Source of the DNA: an uncultured Eubacteriales bacterium
Lineage (GTDB): Bacteria > Bacillota > Clostridia > Christensenellales > Aristaeellaceae
Direction: 5' to 3'
DNA length: 33,369 nucleotides
NCBI GenBank assembly: GCA_902798105.1
Contig: CADBVG010000034.1
Span: 1-33,369, forward strand
Shown: positions 6,051-29,842 of the stretch, piece by piece
How positions within the stretch are numbered: the first letter of the stretch is position 1
Layout: each line of letters starts with the position of its first letter
Program-made: the position numbers and the translations under genes
Notes under the pieces: model-generated
The model's input: only the letters and a program-made list of their open reading frames with translations
Database searches by the model: none
What the model was told of the DNA's origin: nothing

Positions 6051-6650
6051 ATGGATCTGATCATAGAAGCCCTTCGCAAATCCTACGACGGCCACGTCGT
6101 GCTGGATGGACTGACCCACACCTTCCCCCAGGGCACGCTCACCTGCGTCACGGGACGATCGGGCTGCGGCAAAACCACACTGTTGCGGCTGATCGCCGGA
6201 CTGGAAGCGCCGGACGCGGGCAGCATCGACGGCATCCCGGCAGAGGGTATCGCAATGGTGTTTCAGGAGGACCGGCTGCCACCCCAGCTGTGTGCCGCGG
6301 ACTGCCTGCGCTGCGTGCTGAAGAGAGACTCCCAACGGGAGGCGGCCATCGCCGGCGCCCTGGCAGCGCTGAGCCTGGACCCTGCATCGCCCCAGCCCGT
6401 CCGGGAATTCAGCGGCGGCATGCGGCGGCGGGTCGCCCTGGCCCGTGCGTTGCTGTTTCCCGCCCCGCTGGTGCTGTTGGACGAGCCCTTCAAGGGGCTG
6501 GACGACGACACCCGCAGGCGGGCCGTCGACTTCACCCTGTCGATGCTGGCCGGGCGGACGACCCTGCTGGTCACCCATGATCCCGAGGACATCGCGGATT
6601 TCGGCGGAGCTGTATTGCGCCTGGATAAAGGTCCCGAAATTCGCTCATAA
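6051..6650 (+). CDS. ABC transporter ATP-binding protein (SsuB/TauB-like)
   Basis: A 199-aa ATPase subunit, on the short side for the family. Walker A is GRSGCGKTT (about residues 35-43), the Q-loop is VFQEDRLPP, the signature is FSGGMRRRVALARAL, Walker B is LVLLDEPFKGLD, and the switch histidine is in LLVTHD. All catalytic motifs are present. AAGAAAGGA lies just upstream of the ATG. It energises the permease encoded 55 bp upstream. The C-terminus ends soon after the H-loop, as in SsuB/TauB-type partners. Confidence 0.93.
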   Translation: MDLIIEALRKSYDGHVVLDGLTHTFPQGTLTCVTGRSGCGKTTLLRLIAGLEAPDAGSIDGIPAEGIAMVFQEDRLPPQLCAADCLRCVLKRDSQREAAIAGALAALSLDPASPQPVREFSGGMRRRVALARALLFPAPLVLLDEPFKGLDDDTRRRAVDFTLSMLAGRTTLLVTHDPEDIADFGGAVLRLDKGPEIRS

Positions 6651-6672
6651 CAATTCTACCATGTCAACAAAC

Positions 6673-6694
6673 ACCGGCTTTTTGTCGGTTTTTT
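6673..6694 (+). terminator. Intrinsic terminator of the permease/ATPase operon
   Basis: ACCGGC pairs with GTCGGT (6 bp, one wobble) around a T5 loop and is followed by six T residues. It lies 23 bp past the ATPase stop. Confidence 0.65.
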
Positions 6695-7140
6695 ATCTAC
6701 TTTATTGCTCATAAAGGTCAATTTCATCTGTTATTTGCTTATATACCGTCTATTTTGCATCGATGTGCATTATTGATCTGCTCTTTTTAGCCGTACCATT
6801 CTCCCCTTCCATCCCCTTGCTCTGACTTCTTTCTCCTATCCCCCCAATCGCGTTTGCAGCGAAAAAGCCTGTTTTAACATTCATTGGCATCACTTTGAAC
6901 CTACTTGTTGAACAAACTCAGAATTCGCATACAACTATGTCCGGCCATTGTATAAAAACGACAAACTTTCGTTCGGACCATCATATTTCCGCCTGAATCT
7001 GATTTTTCTGAAATGTGATTCTACTTAAACAGGTATCTACGCATTTTGCGAGTCAATTTTTCTGTATGGGCAATTATTTCAATCAATTTTTATTTTGTAT
7101 CACGATATTTCACTCTACCGGTGAATTGTTCACAAAGGAA
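6695..7140. other. AT-rich noncoding stretch between convergent genes
   Basis: About 450 bp much richer in A+T than its surroundings, between the ATPase terminator and the HD-GYP gene's 3' end. No ORF with a credible start and ribosome binding site was found on either strand. It contains short T-runs and scattered small dyads (for example GTCCG...CGGAC at about 6940-6979), but nothing I can name. It may be a decayed acquired segment. Confidence 0.5.
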
Positions 7141-7173
7141 GCGGCGGCAAGGGCTCATGACCTCTGCCGCCGC
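7141..7173. terminator. Hairpin downstream of the HD-GYP gene
   Basis: GCGGCGGCA and TGCCGCCGC form a 9-bp GC stem with further AGG/CCT pairing inside. On the plus strand CGTTTT follows, on the minus strand TTCCTTTG. It is 25 bp past the stop of the minus-strand HD-GYP gene and is its probable terminator. Confidence 0.6.
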
Positions 7174-7198
7174 CGTTTTACGCATACCTTCCCTGGCT

Positions 7199-9343
7199 CT
7201 AACTGCCCATGTAGGTGTTCATCACCCGGTGCACCTCATCCTGGGCATTGACGAAGGCGTCCACCACCTTGGGGTCGAAGTGACTTCCGGAGCCCTCGCG
7301 GATGATGGCCATGGCCTTTTCAAAGGGGAAGCCCTCCTTGTAGCTGCGCTTGGATACCAGGGCGTCGAACACGTCGGCCACCGCCATGATGCGCGCCGAC
7401 AGCGGTATCTCCTCGCCTGCCAGCCCGCAGGGATAGCCCTGTCCGTTCCACTTCTCGTGGTGGTAGTGGGCCAGGTTCATGGCCTCCTTCAGGTAGCCCG
7501 AATTCTCCTCGGATACCATGTCGATGGCCCGGGAAATGATCTCGGCGCCGGCGGTGGTGTGGGTCTTCATGATCTCGAACTCCTCGTCGGTCAGCTTGCC
7601 GGGCTTGTTCAGAATGGCGTCGGAGACCTGAATCTTGCCCACGTCATGCAGCGGCGCGGAGTTGACCACGTCCTGCATGTAGGCTTCCGTCAGCTGGTCC
7701 GCGTACACGCCCTCCCGCTTCAGCTCGCGCAATATGATGTCCGCGTAAGCCGCCGTCTTTCGCACGTGGTCGCCGGTGCATTTGTCGCGGCTCTCCACCA
7801 TGTCGGCCAGCACCAGGATCAGGCCGTTCTGCAGGCGGCTGATGACCTCGTTCTGGTGCTCCACGTTTTCGATGGTGCCCACCATATCCTCGGTGGTCCT
7901 GACCACAGAGTGATACAGGTTTTCGATCTCGTCGCCGGTGCGGATGTCCAGCTCGTGGATGCGCTCCACTGTCTGGGCGCGGGCCTCCTCGCTGTTGTAG
8001 ACGGCATTTTCGGTGGCGATATCCATGGTGTTGATGGGCAGTATGATGTTATACTCGGCCAGCCAGATCGCGCCGGTCAGGATCAGCAGGAAGAAGCCAA
8101 AGAACAGCGAGAATACCCGGGCCATGAACTGGTAGCCGCTGATGGCGATGTGGTTCATGTTGATGTCTACACCCACATAGCACTGGCACACGCCCTCGCT
8201 GTCGAAGACGGGCTTGTAAACCGTCAGCAGCCAGCCATATTTTTCGTTGGACTGGATGGGAGGGATTTCGCCACCGGCCAGCAGCGTCGGCAGCTTGTCC
8301 ATGAACGCCTCGTCAAACTCGATAATGTCCCCGGGCTCGGAGCCGGGGGTGTCCGGCGTGTCGGCGTCGAATACCACGTGGCAGCCGTCCTCCATGATCT
8401 TGTAGGCGTAGACGTATTCGATCTCCTCGGCGCTGTTCGCCAGGTCGTTGAAGCGCTTGTCCACCCGGGCATACCCTTCGGCATCGAAGCCCTTGGTGAT
8501 GTATTCATCCACCCGGTCCGCTTCGATGGCGTCGGATGCCACGTTGGACACGCCGTAGGCCAGCTTGACCTGCTCGTCGATGGCGGCATTCTGGAAATGT
8601 ATGAAGCTGATCACCGTCACCACCGCGGCGATAATCAACATGGCCGCGGCCACCAGCAATATGATCTTCGACCGCAGGGACATCTTGCGGGCGCGCTTGT
8701 GGTCCACCGCCATCATCTTCTTGCGGGTCAGCGGCGCCTGTTGCCAGCCGGCGAAATAGAGCCTGTCCTTGGTCGCCTGGGGCAGCAAGCGCAATACAAT
8801 CACCACGATGGCGACGGTGATGGCCTTGTCGACAATATCAATCAGCATGTCCGCCGTGAACTGTGCCCAGAACGGGCTCATGATACCAGCGTCCAGTATG
8901 CGCTGGGCCAACGGCGCGGAGAGGCTGGTGCCGAATTCAAAGCCGTACAGCGTCCATGTCAGCACCGAGCCCAGCCCACCGCCGATCAGCGCAAACACGG
9001 CCACCACGATGGGCAGCTTCGAGGGCTTGTTGTAGTAGCCATGCTCGGCAAACCAGGCCGAGCAGATGGCAATCAGCACCGTCAGCGAACCGTAATAGGT
9101 GGTCTCGTGGGCCCCGATGCCGTTGACAAGGTTGGTTAGGAAGCCCACCACGATGCCGGGAATGTAGCCGCCCAGCGCCGCGGTCAGGGCGCTGCCAACG
9201 TTATCCAGAAACAGGGGCAGGTGCAGCGCAAGCGGTACCTTGGCCAGCAGGTAGTTGATGGCCAATCCGACAGCGCAGAGCGCCACTAGGTGAAGCCACC
9301 GGCTGCCTTTGGACATCTCCACGCCCCTCGGCTTGAATTCCAT
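7199..9343 (-). CDS. Membrane HD-GYP phosphodiesterase with N-terminal ECF-S-like multispan region
   Basis: A 714-aa predicted c-di-GMP phosphodiesterase. Residues about 17-190 form five or six membrane helices (LFLDNVGSALTAALGGYIPGI and TNLVNGIG look like an ECF transporter S component). TM helix 225-250 is followed by an extracytoplasmic Cache-like region (about 251-400) and another TM helix (about 408-435), then a HAMP/coil linker. The C-terminal HD-GYP domain (about 505-705) keeps its metal ligands and signature: HD at 566-567, His595, His628-His629 and GYP at 636-638. GGAGG lies 8-12 nt upstream of the ATG. Promoter TTTACA-17-CATAAT is at 9424-9452. It is monocistronic. The membrane region suggests sensing of a small molecule or membrane state; that is inference. 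Confidence 0.92.
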   Translation of the reverse strand: MEFKPRGVEMSKGSRWLHLVALCAVGLAINYLLAKVPLALHLPLFLDNVGSALTAALGGYIPGIVVGFLTNLVNGIGAHETTYYGSLTVLIAICSAWFAEHGYYNKPSKLPIVVAVFALIGGGLGSVLTWTLYGFEFGTSLSAPLAQRILDAGIMSPFWAQFTADMLIDIVDKAITVAIVVIVLRLLPQATKDRLYFAGWQQAPLTRKKMMAVDHKRARKMSLRSKIILLVAAAMLIIAAVVTVISFIHFQNAAIDEQVKLAYGVSNVASDAIEADRVDEYITKGFDAEGYARVDKRFNDLANSAEEIEYVYAYKIMEDGCHVVFDADTPDTPGSEPGDIIEFDEAFMDKLPTLLAGGEIPPIQSNEKYGWLLTVYKPVFDSEGVCQCYVGVDINMNHIAISGYQFMARVFSLFFGFFLLILTGAIWLAEYNIILPINTMDIATENAVYNSEEARAQTVERIHELDIRTGDEIENLYHSVVRTTEDMVGTIENVEHQNEVISRLQNGLILVLADMVESRDKCTGDHVRKTAAYADIILRELKREGVYADQLTEAYMQDVVNSAPLHDVGKIQVSDAILNKPGKLTDEEFEIMKTHTTAGAEIISRAIDMVSEENSGYLKEAMNLAHYHHEKWNGQGYPCGLAGEEIPLSARIMAVADVFDALVSKRSYKEGFPFEKAMAIIREGSGSHFDPKVVDAFVNAQDEVHRVMNTYMGS

Positions 9344-9423
9344 AGTATTTATTCCTCCCGTCAGGCAAATCCGCGGCCTCTATTGAGACGCGAATATGAA
9401 GCAATTGATATATTCCCGGCTAT

Positions 9424-9452
9424 ATTATGACATGACGCCCGCGGTTTGTAAA
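9424..9452 (-). promoter_or_regulatory. Promoter of the HD-GYP gene
   Basis: Minus strand: TTTACA (9452-9447), 17-bp spacer, CATAAT (9429-9424) with a TG extension just before the -10. The leader is about 75 nt; no GEMM c-di-GMP riboswitch is recognisable in it. Confidence 0.7.
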
Positions 9453-9487
9453 GTAAAAAAGCTATATGTTTGTATGATAATCCATAA

Positions 9488-9518
9488 TGAAAAAAGACAC
9501 CGCGTTTCAGCGGTGTCC
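9488..9518 (-). terminator. Intrinsic terminator of the rpsF-ssb-rpsR operon
   Basis: GACACCGC and GCGGTGTC (8 bp) around a short loop, followed on the minus strand by TTTTTTC. It is 17 bp past the rpsR stop. Confidence 0.92.
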
Positions 9519-9534
9519 CGTGTATGGATTTCAA

Positions 9535-9789
9535 TCAGTCAGACACATAGGGCATCAGGGCGATCGTGCGAGCGCGCTTGATGGCCGTGGAGAGCTGACG
9601 CTGGTGCTTTGCGCAGGTGCCGGTCATGCGGCGGGGCAGAATCTTGCCGCGCTCGCTGGTGAAACGGCGGAGCCTGGCCACATCCTTGTAATCGATGTGC
9701 TGGATCTTATCCACGCAAAACGCGCAAACCTTCCTGCGCGGCTTGCGGCCGCGGGGGCGGCGAATGCGCTCGCCTCTATCCTCAGACAT
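9535..9789 (-). CDS. rpsR: 30S ribosomal protein S18
   Basis: An 84-aa basic protein matching bS18 in full. KVCAFC near the N-terminus, [23 protein letters not shown] in the middle, and [26 protein letters not shown] at the end are the family's conserved blocks. S18 binds with S6 in the platform of the small subunit. AAGGAGG precedes the ATG. The three cysteines (two in CAFC, one in GTCAKHQ) correspond to the zinc-type C+ form of S18. It is the last gene of the operon, 90 bp after ssb. Confidence 0.98.
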
Positions 9790-26017: not shown

Positions 26018-26057
26018 AATTCTGATTTATCGAGCACAGCTCGATAAATCAGAATTT
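26018..26057. repeat. ATTCTGATTTATCG palindrome, type A, at the cbiP stop codon
   Basis: A perfect 18-bp inverted repeat (26018-26035 and 26039-26056) around ACA. Bases 26056-26058 form the cbiP TAA stop, so the element begins on the stop codon. Confidence 0.92.
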
Positions 26058-27555
26058 ACTCCCCTCTCAATATTGCGTATACCTTTTCCATATCCAAGCT
26101 CTCCCGCACGGTCCGGGCCAGGATGTCGAACTGCTCTTCCCTGTAAGCCTTCATGTTCACGGCGGCCTGTTCGGCGGAGACGGGAGATTCGGGCAGGCCC
26201 TTCAATTTGCGGGCGCGGCGCACGACCGCCTCCGCCAGCACGCCGTCGTCGAACAGGCCGTGCAGGTAGGTCCCCAGCACGTTCCCGGCGGCGTTGCAGG
26301 CCCCGGTCGGGCCCATCCAGAAGCGGGCGCTTTCCCCGAAGGTATTGACGCCGGAGTGGATCTCGTAGCCCTCCACCCGGGTACCCGCCAGCGGCGCGAG
26401 CCAGTCCACCGCGTCGGTCAGCGTGCCCTCGGCCTGCACAGTGCGCTTCTCGGGCTCGAAGGTGACCGCCATGTCCAGCAGCCCCAGCCCCGCTACCTCG
26501 GGCGCGGCGGATTCCACGCCGTGGGGGTCCCGCAGCACCTGGCCCAGCATCTGATAGCCGCCGCACACCCCCAGCAGCAGCTTCCCGGCCCGGGCATGGC
26601 GCACGATGGGGGCCAGCATGTTCCGGTTGCGCAGGTCGATCAAATCGTCGATGGTGTTCTTCGTGCCGGGCAGGATCACCACGTCCGCGCCCTCCAGGTC
26701 ATCCGGGCGAAGGGCGTATTTCAGCGTCACCCCGGGGTGCAGCGACAGCGCCTGGAAGTCGGTGAAGTTCGATATGTGCTTCAGCCGCACCACAGCCACG
26801 GTGACCTCCCCCGTACCGCTGACGGCGGTCAGGCGTTCGGAAACGCTGTCCTCGTCCTCGATGTCGGCGTCGCACCATGGCACCACGCCAATCACCGGGA
26901 TGCCCACCTTATCCTCGATCATCCGCAGCCCCGGCTCGAGTATGCGCACGTCGCCCCGGAACTTGTTCACGATCATGCCCTTTATGCGCGCGCGCTCCTC
27001 CGGCTCCAGCAGCATTACCGTACCGTACAGCGACGCGAACACGCCGCCCCGGTCGATATCCCCCACCAGCAGCACCGGCGCGTCGGCGGCCTCGGCCATC
27101 CACATGTTGACCAGGTCGCCTTCCTTCAGATTGATCTCCGCGGGGCTGCCCGCGCCCTCGATCACCACGGCGTCGTATTTCGACTCCAGACGGTCGTAGG
27201 TGTCCTTCACCAGCTGGCGCAGGTTGGGCTTATAGTTGTGGTACGCCACCGCGTCCATATTGCCGATGGGCCTGCCCAGGCAGATGACCTGGCTCTTTCG
27301 GTCGCTGGTGGGCTTGAGCAGTATGGGGTTCATCTCCACGCTGGGCTCCACCCCCGCGGCCTGGGCCTGCACCACCTGGGCGCGCCCCATCTCCAGCCCC
27401 TCCTTCGTAGCGAAGCTGTTCAGGGCCATGTTCTGGCTCTTGAAGGGGGCGACCCGCAGACCGTCCTCCTTGAAGATGCGGCACAGCGCCGCGCACAGCA
27501 TGGACTTGCCCACCGACGAGCCCGTCCCCTGGAGCATGATCGACTTTCCGCGCAT
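26056..27555 (-). CDS. cbiP: Cobyric acid synthase (glutamine-hydrolysing)
   Basis: A 499-aa CobQ/CbiP that amidates the b, d, e and g side chains of adenosylcobyrinic acid a,c-diamide. The N-terminal ATPase domain has MLQGTGSSVGKS (about residues 7-18), PFKSQNMALNSF, EGAGSPAEINL and GDIDRGGVFASLYGT. The C-terminal class I-like glutamine amidotransferase domain has LPGTKNTIDDL, the nucleophile Cys331 in GVCGGYQMLG, and GYEIHSG with His400. AAAGGAG lies upstream of the ATG. The preceding gene is the EVE nuclease, 32 bp upstream; the following gap is filled with repeats before cbiB. Confidence 0.97.
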   Translation of the reverse strand: MRGKSIMLQGTGSSVGKSMLCAALCRIFKEDGLRVAPFKSQNMALNSFATKEGLEMGRAQVVQAQAAGVEPSVEMNPILLKPTSDRKSQVICLGRPIGNMDAVAYHNYKPNLRQLVKDTYDRLESKYDAVVIEGAGSPAEINLKEGDLVNMWMAEAADAPVLLVGDIDRGGVFASLYGTVMLLEPEERARIKGMIVNKFRGDVRILEPGLRMIEDKVGIPVIGVVPWCDADIEDEDSVSERLTAVSGTGEVTVAVVRLKHISNFTDFQALSLHPGVTLKYALRPDDLEGADVVILPGTKNTIDDLIDLRNRNMLAPIVRHARAGKLLLGVCGGYQMLGQVLRDPHGVESAAPEVAGLGLLDMAVTFEPEKRTVQAEGTLTDAVDWLAPLAGTRVEGYEIHSGVNTFGESARFWMGPTGACNAAGNVLGTYLHGLFDDGVLAEAVVRRARKLKGLPESPVSAEQAAVNMKAYREEQFDILARTVRESLDMEKVYAILRGE

Positions 27556-27587
27556 CTATAATCTCCTTTAACATAACAATAGGCTGA

Positions 27588-28598
27588 TTAAGTCTCTATC
27601 TGAATTGGTTTCAGCACAAGTTGACCATTCGCCATGTAATACTCAATAAGCTGAATTGGCTTATTTTCAATAACAGTCCTCATACGAATATAGTTAATTA
27701 CTTCTTCGGAAAAACGCTTTGCTATACCTACTGATCGTACCATTTTTTGATCTCCATGCGCTCTTTTTTGTAAAAACCACGTCTCATATCCAATCAACTG
27801 CTTACAAGCATCAATGTCAAATATATCTCTTTTCATTTCGATTATAGCATACGAAGATATAATCTGTGTATGAAGTGGATTGTTAAACATCAACAAAACA
27901 TCCATTTCACTACCAATAGATGTTGGTATATAACTTAAATAATCTGTGTATATTCCAAATATCTCCTGGTACTTATTTTCCGTTAATCCCCTGAGAAAAT
28001 AAGCCATCAATCCTGCTTCATATTTCAACTGTCCATCTGCGTCCTTATGAATCAGAGAAAGCAAATCATTTTCTACAACATGGTATGGCCGAGGGATTAT
28101 CTGCTTTACTCGGGAAAAAGGGTTTATTTTGCTTAACTCCCCTACCAGAATCTCAAATTGATCATTTGAGATAGAAAACATTGCATTTACTCCGCTTGCC
28201 CTTTTTAAAGCAAAGCTCCATATTTTGCCTTCATTTTGAAGGTCGTAAATGTCATGTAAATGAAGCGGCACAGTAAAGTTCATTTCGGTTCCGAAAAGCC
28301 TAATTCGATATGGATACACCTTGTCAGGATCTGGCCAGACTAATGAATCATCATAAAATGGTGCCCCTTCTACACGATAAACGCCCGTTAAAATGTTTTC
28401 TTGCGTAATATAGAACAAAACATAATCATTTTCTTTGATCATGCTCATTCTAGAAATCAACTGATCATTGATGTTTTTTTCGTTTCTTCCTGATGCCGCA
28501 CTCGGGACGGCAGTTAGTCCACGTTGCTTACAAATCTCATAATTTTTTCGATCACAAACAAAGATATGTGCCGGCAAAATAATCCCTCCATTTGTCAT
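27588..28598 (-). CDS. EVE (PUA-like) domain fused to PD-(D/E)XK nuclease domain, predicted modification-dependent endonuclease
   Basis: A 336-aa protein, markedly AT-rich compared with its cobalamin neighbours. Residues about 10-115 look like an EVE/YTH-related PUA fold: HIFVCDRKNYEICKQRG, MIKENDYVLFYITQENILTGVYRV and YPYRIRLF. EVE domains read modified DNA or RNA bases. Residues about 185-275 carry a PD-(D/E)XK nuclease core: Glu194 in the lead helix (KYEAGLM), Asp233 (GSEMDVLLM), Glu254-x-Lys256 (YAIIEMK) and the QLIGYE helix with Gln267, NucS/RecB-like. The combination resembles type IV-like defence nucleases; that activity is inferred. ATG 28598 has no ribosome binding site, whereas TTG at 28577 has GGAGGG just ahead, so the start is open. 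It lies between cobD and cbiP and next to a truncated repeat, so it looks acquired. Confidence 0.75.
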   Translation of the reverse strand: MTNGGIILPAHIFVCDRKNYEICKQRGLTAVPSAASGRNEKNINDQLISRMSMIKENDYVLFYITQENILTGVYRVEGAPFYDDSLVWPDPDKVYPYRIRLFGTEMNFTVPLHLHDIYDLQNEGKIWSFALKRASGVNAMFSISNDQFEILVGELSKINPFSRVKQIIPRPYHVVENDLLSLIHKDADGQLKYEAGLMAYFLRGLTENKYQEIFGIYTDYLSYIPTSIGSEMDVLLMFNNPLHTQIISSYAIIEMKRDIFDIDACKQLIGYETWFLQKRAHGDQKMVRSVGIAKRFSEEVINYIRMRTVIENKPIQLIEYYMANGQLVLKPIQIET

Positions 28599-28622
28599 TC
28601 CATTGGTTTTGATCTGTCAACA

Positions 28623-28861
28623 TAGATTAGTTTAGCTGCTCCAGCCCCCAAGAGTAGCCTTCCCCTTTGGGGAAGGTGGATTTCCCGGAAAATGCTTGCA
28701 TTGTTCCGAGAAAGATGGATGAGGTCCTTGTCGCTCGAACAACGCTTGTTTTAGCATATGCGCGAGGCGTAATGTGAGGGGACCTCATCCGCCTGCTTCG
28801 CAGGCACCTTCCCCAGAGGGAAGGCTTTTGGATTCCGTATATACCCGCCAAATCAGAATTG
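28623..28861. repeat. Truncated copy of the 320-bp CCTTCCCC element next to the EVE nuclease gene
   Basis: ATTAGTTTAGCTGCTCCAGC (28625-28644) resembles the interior of the 12530-12849 element. AGCCTTCCCC (28656-28665) and GGGAAGGCT (28818-28825) form the nested arms, and 28669-28707 is the reverse complement of the 39-bp block at 12743-12781. The right terminus CAAATCAGAATTG (28849-28861) is present and overlaps the last codons of cobD. The left terminus is missing exactly where the EVE gene unit starts. Confidence 0.8.
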
Positions 28862-29842
28862 CACCGCCTCCACCAGCCGCCCGTTCTCCCCCTCCGTTCG
28901 CACGCACAGCCGCACGTGGCCGTGGGTCAGGCCAGGGAACATGCCACAGGGGCGGACGAGGATGCCCCTTTGCCGCAGCGCTTCGATGGTGGGCCGCATG
29001 TCCCTTCCGAAGTCGCACAGCAGGAAGTTGGCGTCGCTGGGATAAACCCTCGTCCCGATGGCCGTCAGCGCCGCCGCGAAGCCATCCCGACGTTTGTCGT
29101 TCCGGCGGCGGATCTCGTCGAATTCCGCCCTGTGCCCGGGCAGCGCGGCGGCCACGGCGTCGGCCACGCAGTTCAGCCGCCAGGGCAGCAGCCCTTCCCG
29201 CAGCGTCCCGACCACCGACGGGTGGGCGGCCATATACCCCAGCCGCACGCCGGGGATCGCCAGCACCTTGGTCAGCGAGCCCAGCACAATCAGCGCCGGA
29301 TGGCCGGAAACCGCGTCCCTCACGCTGTGTTCGGGGCAGTAGTCGATGAACGCCTCGTCCACCGCCAGCCGCCCGCCGACGGCCTCCAGCTTTTCCAGCA
29401 GCGCCAGCACGTCCCCGCGAGGCAGCGCGTCGCCGGTGGGGTTGTTGGGGTTGCAAATCCAGAGCGTCTCCCCCGGCTCCGGGCAATAATCAGCCAACTC
29501 CGACCGCTTCACATCCCTGTGCACCCCGCACAATGCCCCATATTCCTGAAAGGTGGGCTGGGCGACGGCGTGGCACCCCGACAGACCGGCGGCGCAGGCG
29601 ATGGCCTCGATGCCTCCGGCCGTGGGCAATATGCAATCCTCCGGCAGGTCCAGGTGGACGCTCAGCCCCGCCAGAGCCGCCCCCTGGCGCAGGTCCGGGT
29701 AGTAGCGGGCGTTTTCAAGCCCCCGGAGCATCGCGGCGCGAACCCATTCGGGCGGTCCTTCCGGATTCAGGTTGGCCGAGAAATCCAGGATTTTATCGGG
29801 GGACGGCCCCTGCCAGACATCTCCGCCGTGAAAAACGCTCAT
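28853..29842 (-). CDS. cobD: Threonine-phosphate decarboxylase (aminotransferase-fold)
   Basis: A 329-aa PLP enzyme making (R)-1-amino-2-propanol O-2-phosphate from L-threonine O-3-phosphate for the cobalamin nucleotide loop. The fold type I aminotransferase markers are DFSANLNPEGPP near residue 20, YYPD, CNPNNPTG (about 130-137), VDEAFIDY with Asp162, and the PLP lysine Lys192 in SLTKVLAIPGVRLGY. The start overlaps the cbiA stop by ATGA (29839-29842), so translation is coupled. The final residues VQF and TGA stop are encoded within the terminal repeat of the adjacent element, so the native C-terminus may have been altered by its insertion. Confidence 0.95.
   Translation of the reverse strand: MSVFHGGDVWQGPSPDKILDFSANLNPEGPPEWVRAAMLRGLENARYYPDLRQGAALAGLSVHLDLPEDCILPTAGGIEAIACAAGLSGCHAVAQPTFQEYGALCGVHRDVKRSELADYCPEPGETLWICNPNNPTGDALPRGDVLALLEKLEAVGGRLAVDEAFIDYCPEHSVRDAVSGHPALIVLGSLTKVLAIPGVRLGYMAAHPSVVGTLREGLLPWRLNCVADAVAAALPGHRAEFDEIRRRNDKRRDGFAAALTAIGTRVYPSDANFLLCDFGRDMRPTIEALRQRGILVRPCGMFPGLTHGHVRLCVRTEGENGRLVEAVQF

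Follow-up and report, generated by a model that had tools for sequence, protein, structure and literature searches.

An insert between cobD and cbiP

The window, that is the whole 33,369-nucleotide stretch of DNA analyzed here, carries on its reverse strand the cobalamin operon genes cbiA, cobD, cbiP and cbiB (Table 1). Between cobD and cbiP lie a MITE-like repeat and an additional gene, contained in an open reading frame (27588-28598, reverse strand) that is open over 336 codons. The longest version of this frame starts with ATG at 28598 and encodes 336 amino acids. Because the TTG at codon 8 corresponds to a Met in three relatives and is preceded by GGAGGG at a distance of 6 nt, translation probably starts at this TTG (28577), yielding a protein of 329 amino acids.

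Table 1. Features of the cobD-cbiP region in the window
Feature	Position	Strand	Details
cbiA	31179-29839	-	NCBIfam, above the cut-off of at least one model
cobD (threonine-phosphate decarboxylase)	28853..29842	-	Intact frame; best match NCBIfam TIGR01140, E 3.6e-72, below the model cut-off
MITE-like repeat between cobD and insert	28643..28860	-	Matches in own genome; ends compared in 30 loci
Outer limits of added DNA	27570..28647	-	Relative to the gene-less junction of G025; gap ~1301 bp here, ~299 bp there
Probable ribosome-binding site GGAGGG	28584..28589	-	6 nt before the TTG start; sequence reading
EVE + NucS_C-like PD-(D/E)XK nuclease gene	27588..28577	-	Probable true extent; TTG at 28577, stop ending at 27588, 329 aa
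EVE domain	28119..28577	-	About residues 8-160 of the 336-aa frame; Pfam, family profile against PDB 1wmm, alignment
PD-(D/E)XK nuclease domain, nearest NucS_C	27591..28094	-	Residues 169-336; E194, D233, E254-x-K256, Q267, Y271, W274
cbiP (cobyric acid synthase)	26056..27555	-	Intact frame; NCBIfam, above cut-off
cbiB	25859-24900	-	NCBIfam, above the cut-off of at least one model

The base composition of the gene sets it apart from its neighbours. Its GC content is 0.363 (36%) with a GC3 of 0.328, against 0.663-0.684 and 0.851-0.904, respectively, for cbiP and cobD; when cbiA and cbiB are included, the GC range becomes 0.656-0.684 at the same GC3. The initial annotation had described an AT-rich gene between two GC-rich ones, and the difference in GC3 (0.33 versus 0.85-0.90) bears this out. 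In a fine GC profile of positions 27400-28950, the drop in GC matches the extent of the gene, and GC climbs through the repeat towards cobD. The window also has milder dips in other places, such as 6751-7250. Judged from the sequence, the gene is of foreign origin and was probably acquired by horizontal transfer. Synonymous sites of the gene are saturated, precluding an estimate of dN/dS; for the related loci L003 and L004 compared with each other, the ratio is about 0.06.

Domain architecture of the encoded protein

The N-terminal half matches the Pfam EVE family (PF01878) over residues 51-152 with an E-value of 3.7e-4 and a score of 20.9 bits, slightly short of the curated cut-off of 23 bits, while the relative encoded at L004 exceeds that cut-off (26.9 bits). 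Searched against the PDB, a six-member family profile retrieved the solved EVE proteins PH1033 (1wmm; E 2.3e-6) and MJECL36 (E 4.8e-4); a four-member profile matched nothing in the PDB. Membership of the EVE family, within the PUA superfamily, is thus seen in profile searches by way of the relatives and the family profile. An EVE/PUA-like N-terminus ending near residue 115 had been proposed initially; the domain is EVE by profiles, but its end lies at about residue 155-160.

The C-terminal half contains the core D...E-x-K of a PD-(D/E)XK nuclease, flanked by a Glu in the helix before it and by Q..Y behind it. Taken alone, the protein matches the NCBIfam NucS model with an E-value of 0.014, and the Pfam NucS_C model found no match up to E 10 in this protein and none in its own genome. 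The connection to NucS_C therefore runs via the family alignment and the protein encoded at L036, which belongs to PF01939 (NucS_C, E 1.1e-13) and was matched by the six-member profile through the nuclease region (positions 181-287; E 3.3e-5 for that genome). When a five-member alignment of the nuclease half was compared with this NucS_C protein using hhalign, a probability of 93.8% (E 1.7e-7) was obtained, pairing D233, E254-x-K256, Q267 and Y271, while a control comparison of the nuclease half with the EVE half yielded 0.1%.

Residues E194, D233, E254, K256 and Q267 are invariant in all three full-length close members (the window protein and two relatives). In a ten-row alignment of the nuclease region, D233 is invariant, and conservation is 90% or higher at E194, E254, Y271 and W274; L030 has another residue in place of the ExK lysine, and L032 is poorly aligned. 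The residues singled out at the outset (E194, D233, E254-x-K256 and Q267) are thus conserved and, from D233 onwards, pair with those of a NucS_C protein, and the profile searches of both halves uphold the proposed EVE plus PD-(D/E)XK architecture. Neither family profile, four-member or six-member, matched a nuclease of known structure in the PDB, and AlphaFold2 models built from three sequences had a mean pLDDT of 37.9 for the whole protein and 40.1 for the nuclease half, too low for either model to be used. The protein resembles NucS/EndoMS (PF01939) in its C-terminal nuclease with the D..E-x-K..Q..Y pattern, yet it has an EVE domain where NucS has its own N-terminal part. Its match to full-length NucS/EndoMS is confined to residues 250-305 and scores 14.4 bits, where the cut-off lies at 216.

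The cobD-cbiP junction in related genomes

A search for CbiP in 28 genomes of the genus, own genome included, gave matches at E ≤ 1e-100 in 22, corresponding to 21 congeners. In the fetched flanks, a cobD match was found upstream of cbiP in 20 of these 21 (L006-L013 and L015-L026) and none was seen at L014. The window protein has no match at any of the 21 congener cbiP loci, and the gene is accordingly absent from all 20 cobD-cbiP junctions, in agreement with the earlier view that it was inserted into the cobalamin operon and separates cobD from cbiP. The two genes are 13-188 bp apart in half of the 20 junctions. At one more, L007 in genome G025, they are separated by 299 bp containing the same kind of MITE-like repeat as in the window, without the gene. 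The remaining nine hold other small genes, which by resemblance we take to encode acetyltransferases (L006, L017, L023, L024), a Cys-rich protein (L010, L015), a small membrane protein (L012), a deacetylase-like protein (L019) and a hydrolase-like protein (L022). Since nine of 20 congener junctions are occupied in this way, an insert at this position is not unusual for the genus.

Relative to the junction of G025, the added DNA sits between the right end of the repeat and the ribosome-binding site of cbiP. The repeat has terminal inverted repeats, TTCTGATTT on the left and AAATCAGAA on the right, and internal arms CCTTCCCC/GGGGAAGG. At least 63 pieces in the own genome match it, some of them being arms of one copy (40 of 127 candidates were scored); C71:2602-2818 is among the places where it occurs. 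Among 30 fetched loci, that of the window included, TCTGATTT is found near the left end in 23, AATCAGA near the right end in 18, and both in 16. The last sense codon and the stop codon of cobD fall inside the copy in the window, in which only the left end is recognizable as such, the right terminal inverted repeat being unrecognizable. Because the repeat was observed on just one flank of the insert, MITE-mediated capture of the gene is offered here as a possibility.

The gene has the same orientation as cbiP and ends 32 bp upstream of its start codon. Promoter-like sites at the gene are not in excess, with four found and 3.7 expected from shuffled sequences. For these reasons co-transcription is plausible, and the gene is probably transcribed together with the cobalamin operon. 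An effect of the insert on cobalamin transcription, whether the dependence or the disturbance suggested in the initial annotation, would be conjectural; the frames of cobD and cbiP are both intact.

Distribution and decay of the family

Homologues of the window protein were found in two of 100 genomes searched, own genome included, a set that contains many incomplete drafts. A single congener of 27 (G011) has a homologue, 49% identical and located at another place, and a scan of genome contigs identified two full-length relatives with 52-53% identity. Profile searches gave matches in three of 396 genomes of the order (E 1e-3), seven of 391 of the class (1e-4) and, at the level of the phylum, one of 398 at 1e-10 and six of 398 at 1e-4 with a wider profile, each count including the own genome and the genomes being partly shared between searches. 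No relative was found in phage records, plasmid records or viral contigs.

Outside the window, 12 related loci consist of an EVE or EVE-like part combined with a NucS-like nuclease, or of a broken copy of this arrangement. L075 aligns with the family end to end (hhalign 99.7%, E 5.1e-27) and L077 over most of its length (95.1%, E 3.4e-8); the N-termini of L030, L076 and L077 are not recognized by the Pfam EVE model. Three further loci have other architectures: the protein matched by the EVE profile at L034 also has an AAA_5 domain and is McrB-like by reading, L035 consists of EVE alone and adjoins a C5 methylase, and the L036 protein joins DUF7669 to NucS_C, its gene adjoining a weakly methylase-like frame.

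The EVE frame is kept and the nuclease half lost or interrupted in L002:1-784 (the G011 copy), L073:1435-2061 and L074:1486-2124, of which L073 and L074 are near-identical (98%). In L074, recognizable nuclease sequence continues in another frame to STNLGKEID. The frame of the G011 copy ends just past YVPTR, with about 125 bp left before the contig stops. At this break GTGTG is read, and the end of a group II intron was therefore considered, but discarded because Rfam gave no match up to E 0.1.

Such decay raises the question of whether the gene in the window is itself a decaying or silent passenger of the operon, devoid of present function. Its AT-rich composition has not yet been ameliorated, its homologues in G011, L033, L073 and L074 are broken, and promoter-like sites are not enriched. 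Against this, its 329 codons are open, the catalytic residues are intact and the ribosome-binding site is good, and we consider a functionless passenger improbable.

Genomic neighbourhoods of the relatives

Defence genes are found near eight of the 12 related loci, the flanks of the loci obtained by profile search spanning about 1.5 kb. At L003, GajB of a Gabija-type GajA/GajB pair ends 45 bp ahead of the gene; an M.Eco57I-like methylase is likewise encoded upstream, and a MobL relaxase and a serine recombinase are encoded downstream. At L004, an nSTAND3 protein is encoded about 3.5 kb downstream, and the copy of G011 (L002) adjoins a BrnT toxin gene. The other five, L029, L030, L033, L075 and L077, have type II restriction-modification methylases or restriction endonucleases alongside: an N6_N4 methylase and IceA at L029, a C5 methylase and a frame without family match at L030, an N6_N4 methylase and a frame resembling part of that of L030 at the broken L033, an IceA gene overlapped by the EVE-nuclease gene at L075, and DpnII and an N6_N4 methylase on either side at L077. 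No defence gene was seen in the flanks of L032, L073, L074 and L076; that of L032 holds a YgjP-like metallopeptidase gene and that of L074 a weak DUF6236 match.

Proteins of the EVE-NucS type recur beside or between restriction endonuclease and methylase genes, the endonucleases being IceA, DpnII and an unnamed endonuclease-like family. With regard to the last, the protein of L030:39-1499 consists of two copies of a domain present singly in L033:498-1223 (34% and 30% identity), in both cases near methylases. It has no significant Pfam or NCBIfam match, and the domain perhaps represents an undescribed restriction endonuclease family. At L004, a frame of 1077 amino acids (6382-9615) separates the EVE-nuclease from the nSTAND3 protein; it has no match in Pfam or PADLOC and a weak one in NCBIfam, making it a candidate for an unknown defence component.

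These neighbourhoods also bear on two other functions that the protein might have. The first is that of a repair or mismatch nuclease, in which the NucS-like domain would cut mismatched or damaged DNA and the EVE domain would read a damaged or deaminated base. Archaeal and actinobacterial NucS/EndoMS cut mismatches, and the nuclease half is indeed nearest to NucS_C. Moreover, DNA methylases adjoin several relatives, a company that could be likened to that of Vsr, which accompanies C5 methylases. However, three of the adjoining methylases (L029, L033, L077) belong to the N6_N4 class, and a T:G repair partner of the Vsr type would hardly make sense for these. Gabija, BrnT and nSTAND3 are the neighbours of other relatives, and the sporadic occurrence of the gene, in one of 27 congeners, is unlike that of a housekeeping repair gene. 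A role in repair thus appears unlikely.

Alternatively, the target of the EVE domain might be a modified base in RNA, with the nuclease acting as a toxin-like effector within an abortive, toxin-antitoxin-like unit. The BrnT gene next to the G011 copy would fit such a unit, and the EVE frame has survived without the nuclease in three relatives, of which two are near-identical, as if the nuclease were costly. PD-(D/E)XK nucleases of this type, however, are known to act on DNA, five of the 12 related loci are found among DNA restriction-modification genes, and the window gene, flanked by cobD and cbiP, has no antitoxin-like partner adjoining it. Although EVE domains are described in predicted toxin-antitoxin modules (PMC7641849), we give an RNA-directed or toxin-like function little credence.

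Relation to known systems

A role as type IV restriction endonucleases has already been predicted for fusions of EVE and PD(D/E)XK domains (Bell, Wolf, Koonin 2020, PMC7641849). Because that work describes such fusions as putative type IV enzymes, we regard the window protein as a member of an already predicted class. It shares with those enzymes the two domains and their predicted roles, EVE sensing modified DNA and PD-(D/E)XK cutting it, and the fast-evolving EVE domains described there in defence contexts are a further likeness to the present family. The setting in a cobalamin operon, in contrast, is particular to the window genome. EVE proteins are also described beside type I restriction-modification systems (PMC7641849). 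The domain is mentioned together with Gabija in PMC12839542 and PMC12707154, the latter a review in which type II restriction-modification is mentioned as well.

Among characterized enzymes, VcaM4I (EVE-HNH, PMC7897488) flips 5mC and 5hmC and is a modification-dependent endonuclease tested on 5mC/5hmC DNA. Like the window protein, it unites an N-terminal EVE sensor (residues 1-147) with a C-terminal nuclease in a single chain, here of about 310 residues; its nuclease, however, is of the HNH class, in contrast to the PD-(D/E)XK domain predicted for the window protein. CMoRE (PMC12923530), a single-gene GIY-YIG type IV enzyme against modified cytosine, likewise unites sensor and nuclease in one gene, but in the opposite order, with an N-terminal nuclease of another class and a C-terminal sensor.

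The main text of PMC7641849 does not mention NucS, and in the open-licence papers searched, no mention of an EVE domain together with NucS was found. The present comparisons contribute an assignment of the nuclease to the NucS type and the finding that the architecture recurs within type II restriction-modification loci; either may already have been described.

Proposed function and origin

Taken together, the best explanation, and one we hold to be likely, is that the gene encodes a horizontally acquired, single-chain modification-dependent (type IV-like) DNA endonuclease. In architecture, the protein is the sensor-nuclease fusion expected of a type IV restriction enzyme; PADLOC gave no match for it. 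The type IV-like defence module put forward in the initial annotation gains from the defence genes near eight of the 12 related loci, while modified-base reading, the metal roles, cleavage and phage restriction or defence by this protein are what we infer. The EVE domain would flip out and hold a modified base of DNA entering from a phage or plasmid, a cytosine derivative being the likeliest target, and the NucS_C-like PD-(D/E)XK domain would cut the DNA nearby, with a metal bound via D233 and E254 and with K256 and E194 assisting. A type IV enzyme would act without a partner methylase, and on this point the observations are mixed: the own genome has no match to PF00145 and the window contig none to PF01555, but methylases or restriction endonucleases stand beside five of the 12 related loci. 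Lack of a C5 methylase fits an m5C reader but says little, because 24 of the 28 genus genomes, own genome included, lack one; this genus baseline weakens its use as support.

As to its origin, the gene probably arrived as a one-gene insert of about 1 kb at the edge of the MITE-like repeat, between cobD and cbiP. In this genus the junction is a collector of small genes, and the newcomer is probably transcribed along with the cobalamin operon. More tentatively, EVE-NucS proteins may repeatedly serve type II restriction-modification loci as a third component, one that catches DNA shielded by its modification from the partner endonuclease; the window gene could then be a solitary, methylase-free escapee from such a locus, now residing in a biosynthetic operon.

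The locus thus appears to record a neat capture event, and its product is a well-supported candidate for a defence enzyme, though one belonging to a class predicted before. It presents a one-gene candidate restriction enzyme caught between two vitamin B12 biosynthesis genes, and a close relative offers the gene-less junction for comparison. Where the same architecture occurs inside type II restriction-modification loci, a modification-reading nuclease must somehow spare host methylation. These loci would provide small EVE proteins whose genetic partner fixes the host modification, making the question of what EVE reads a testable one.
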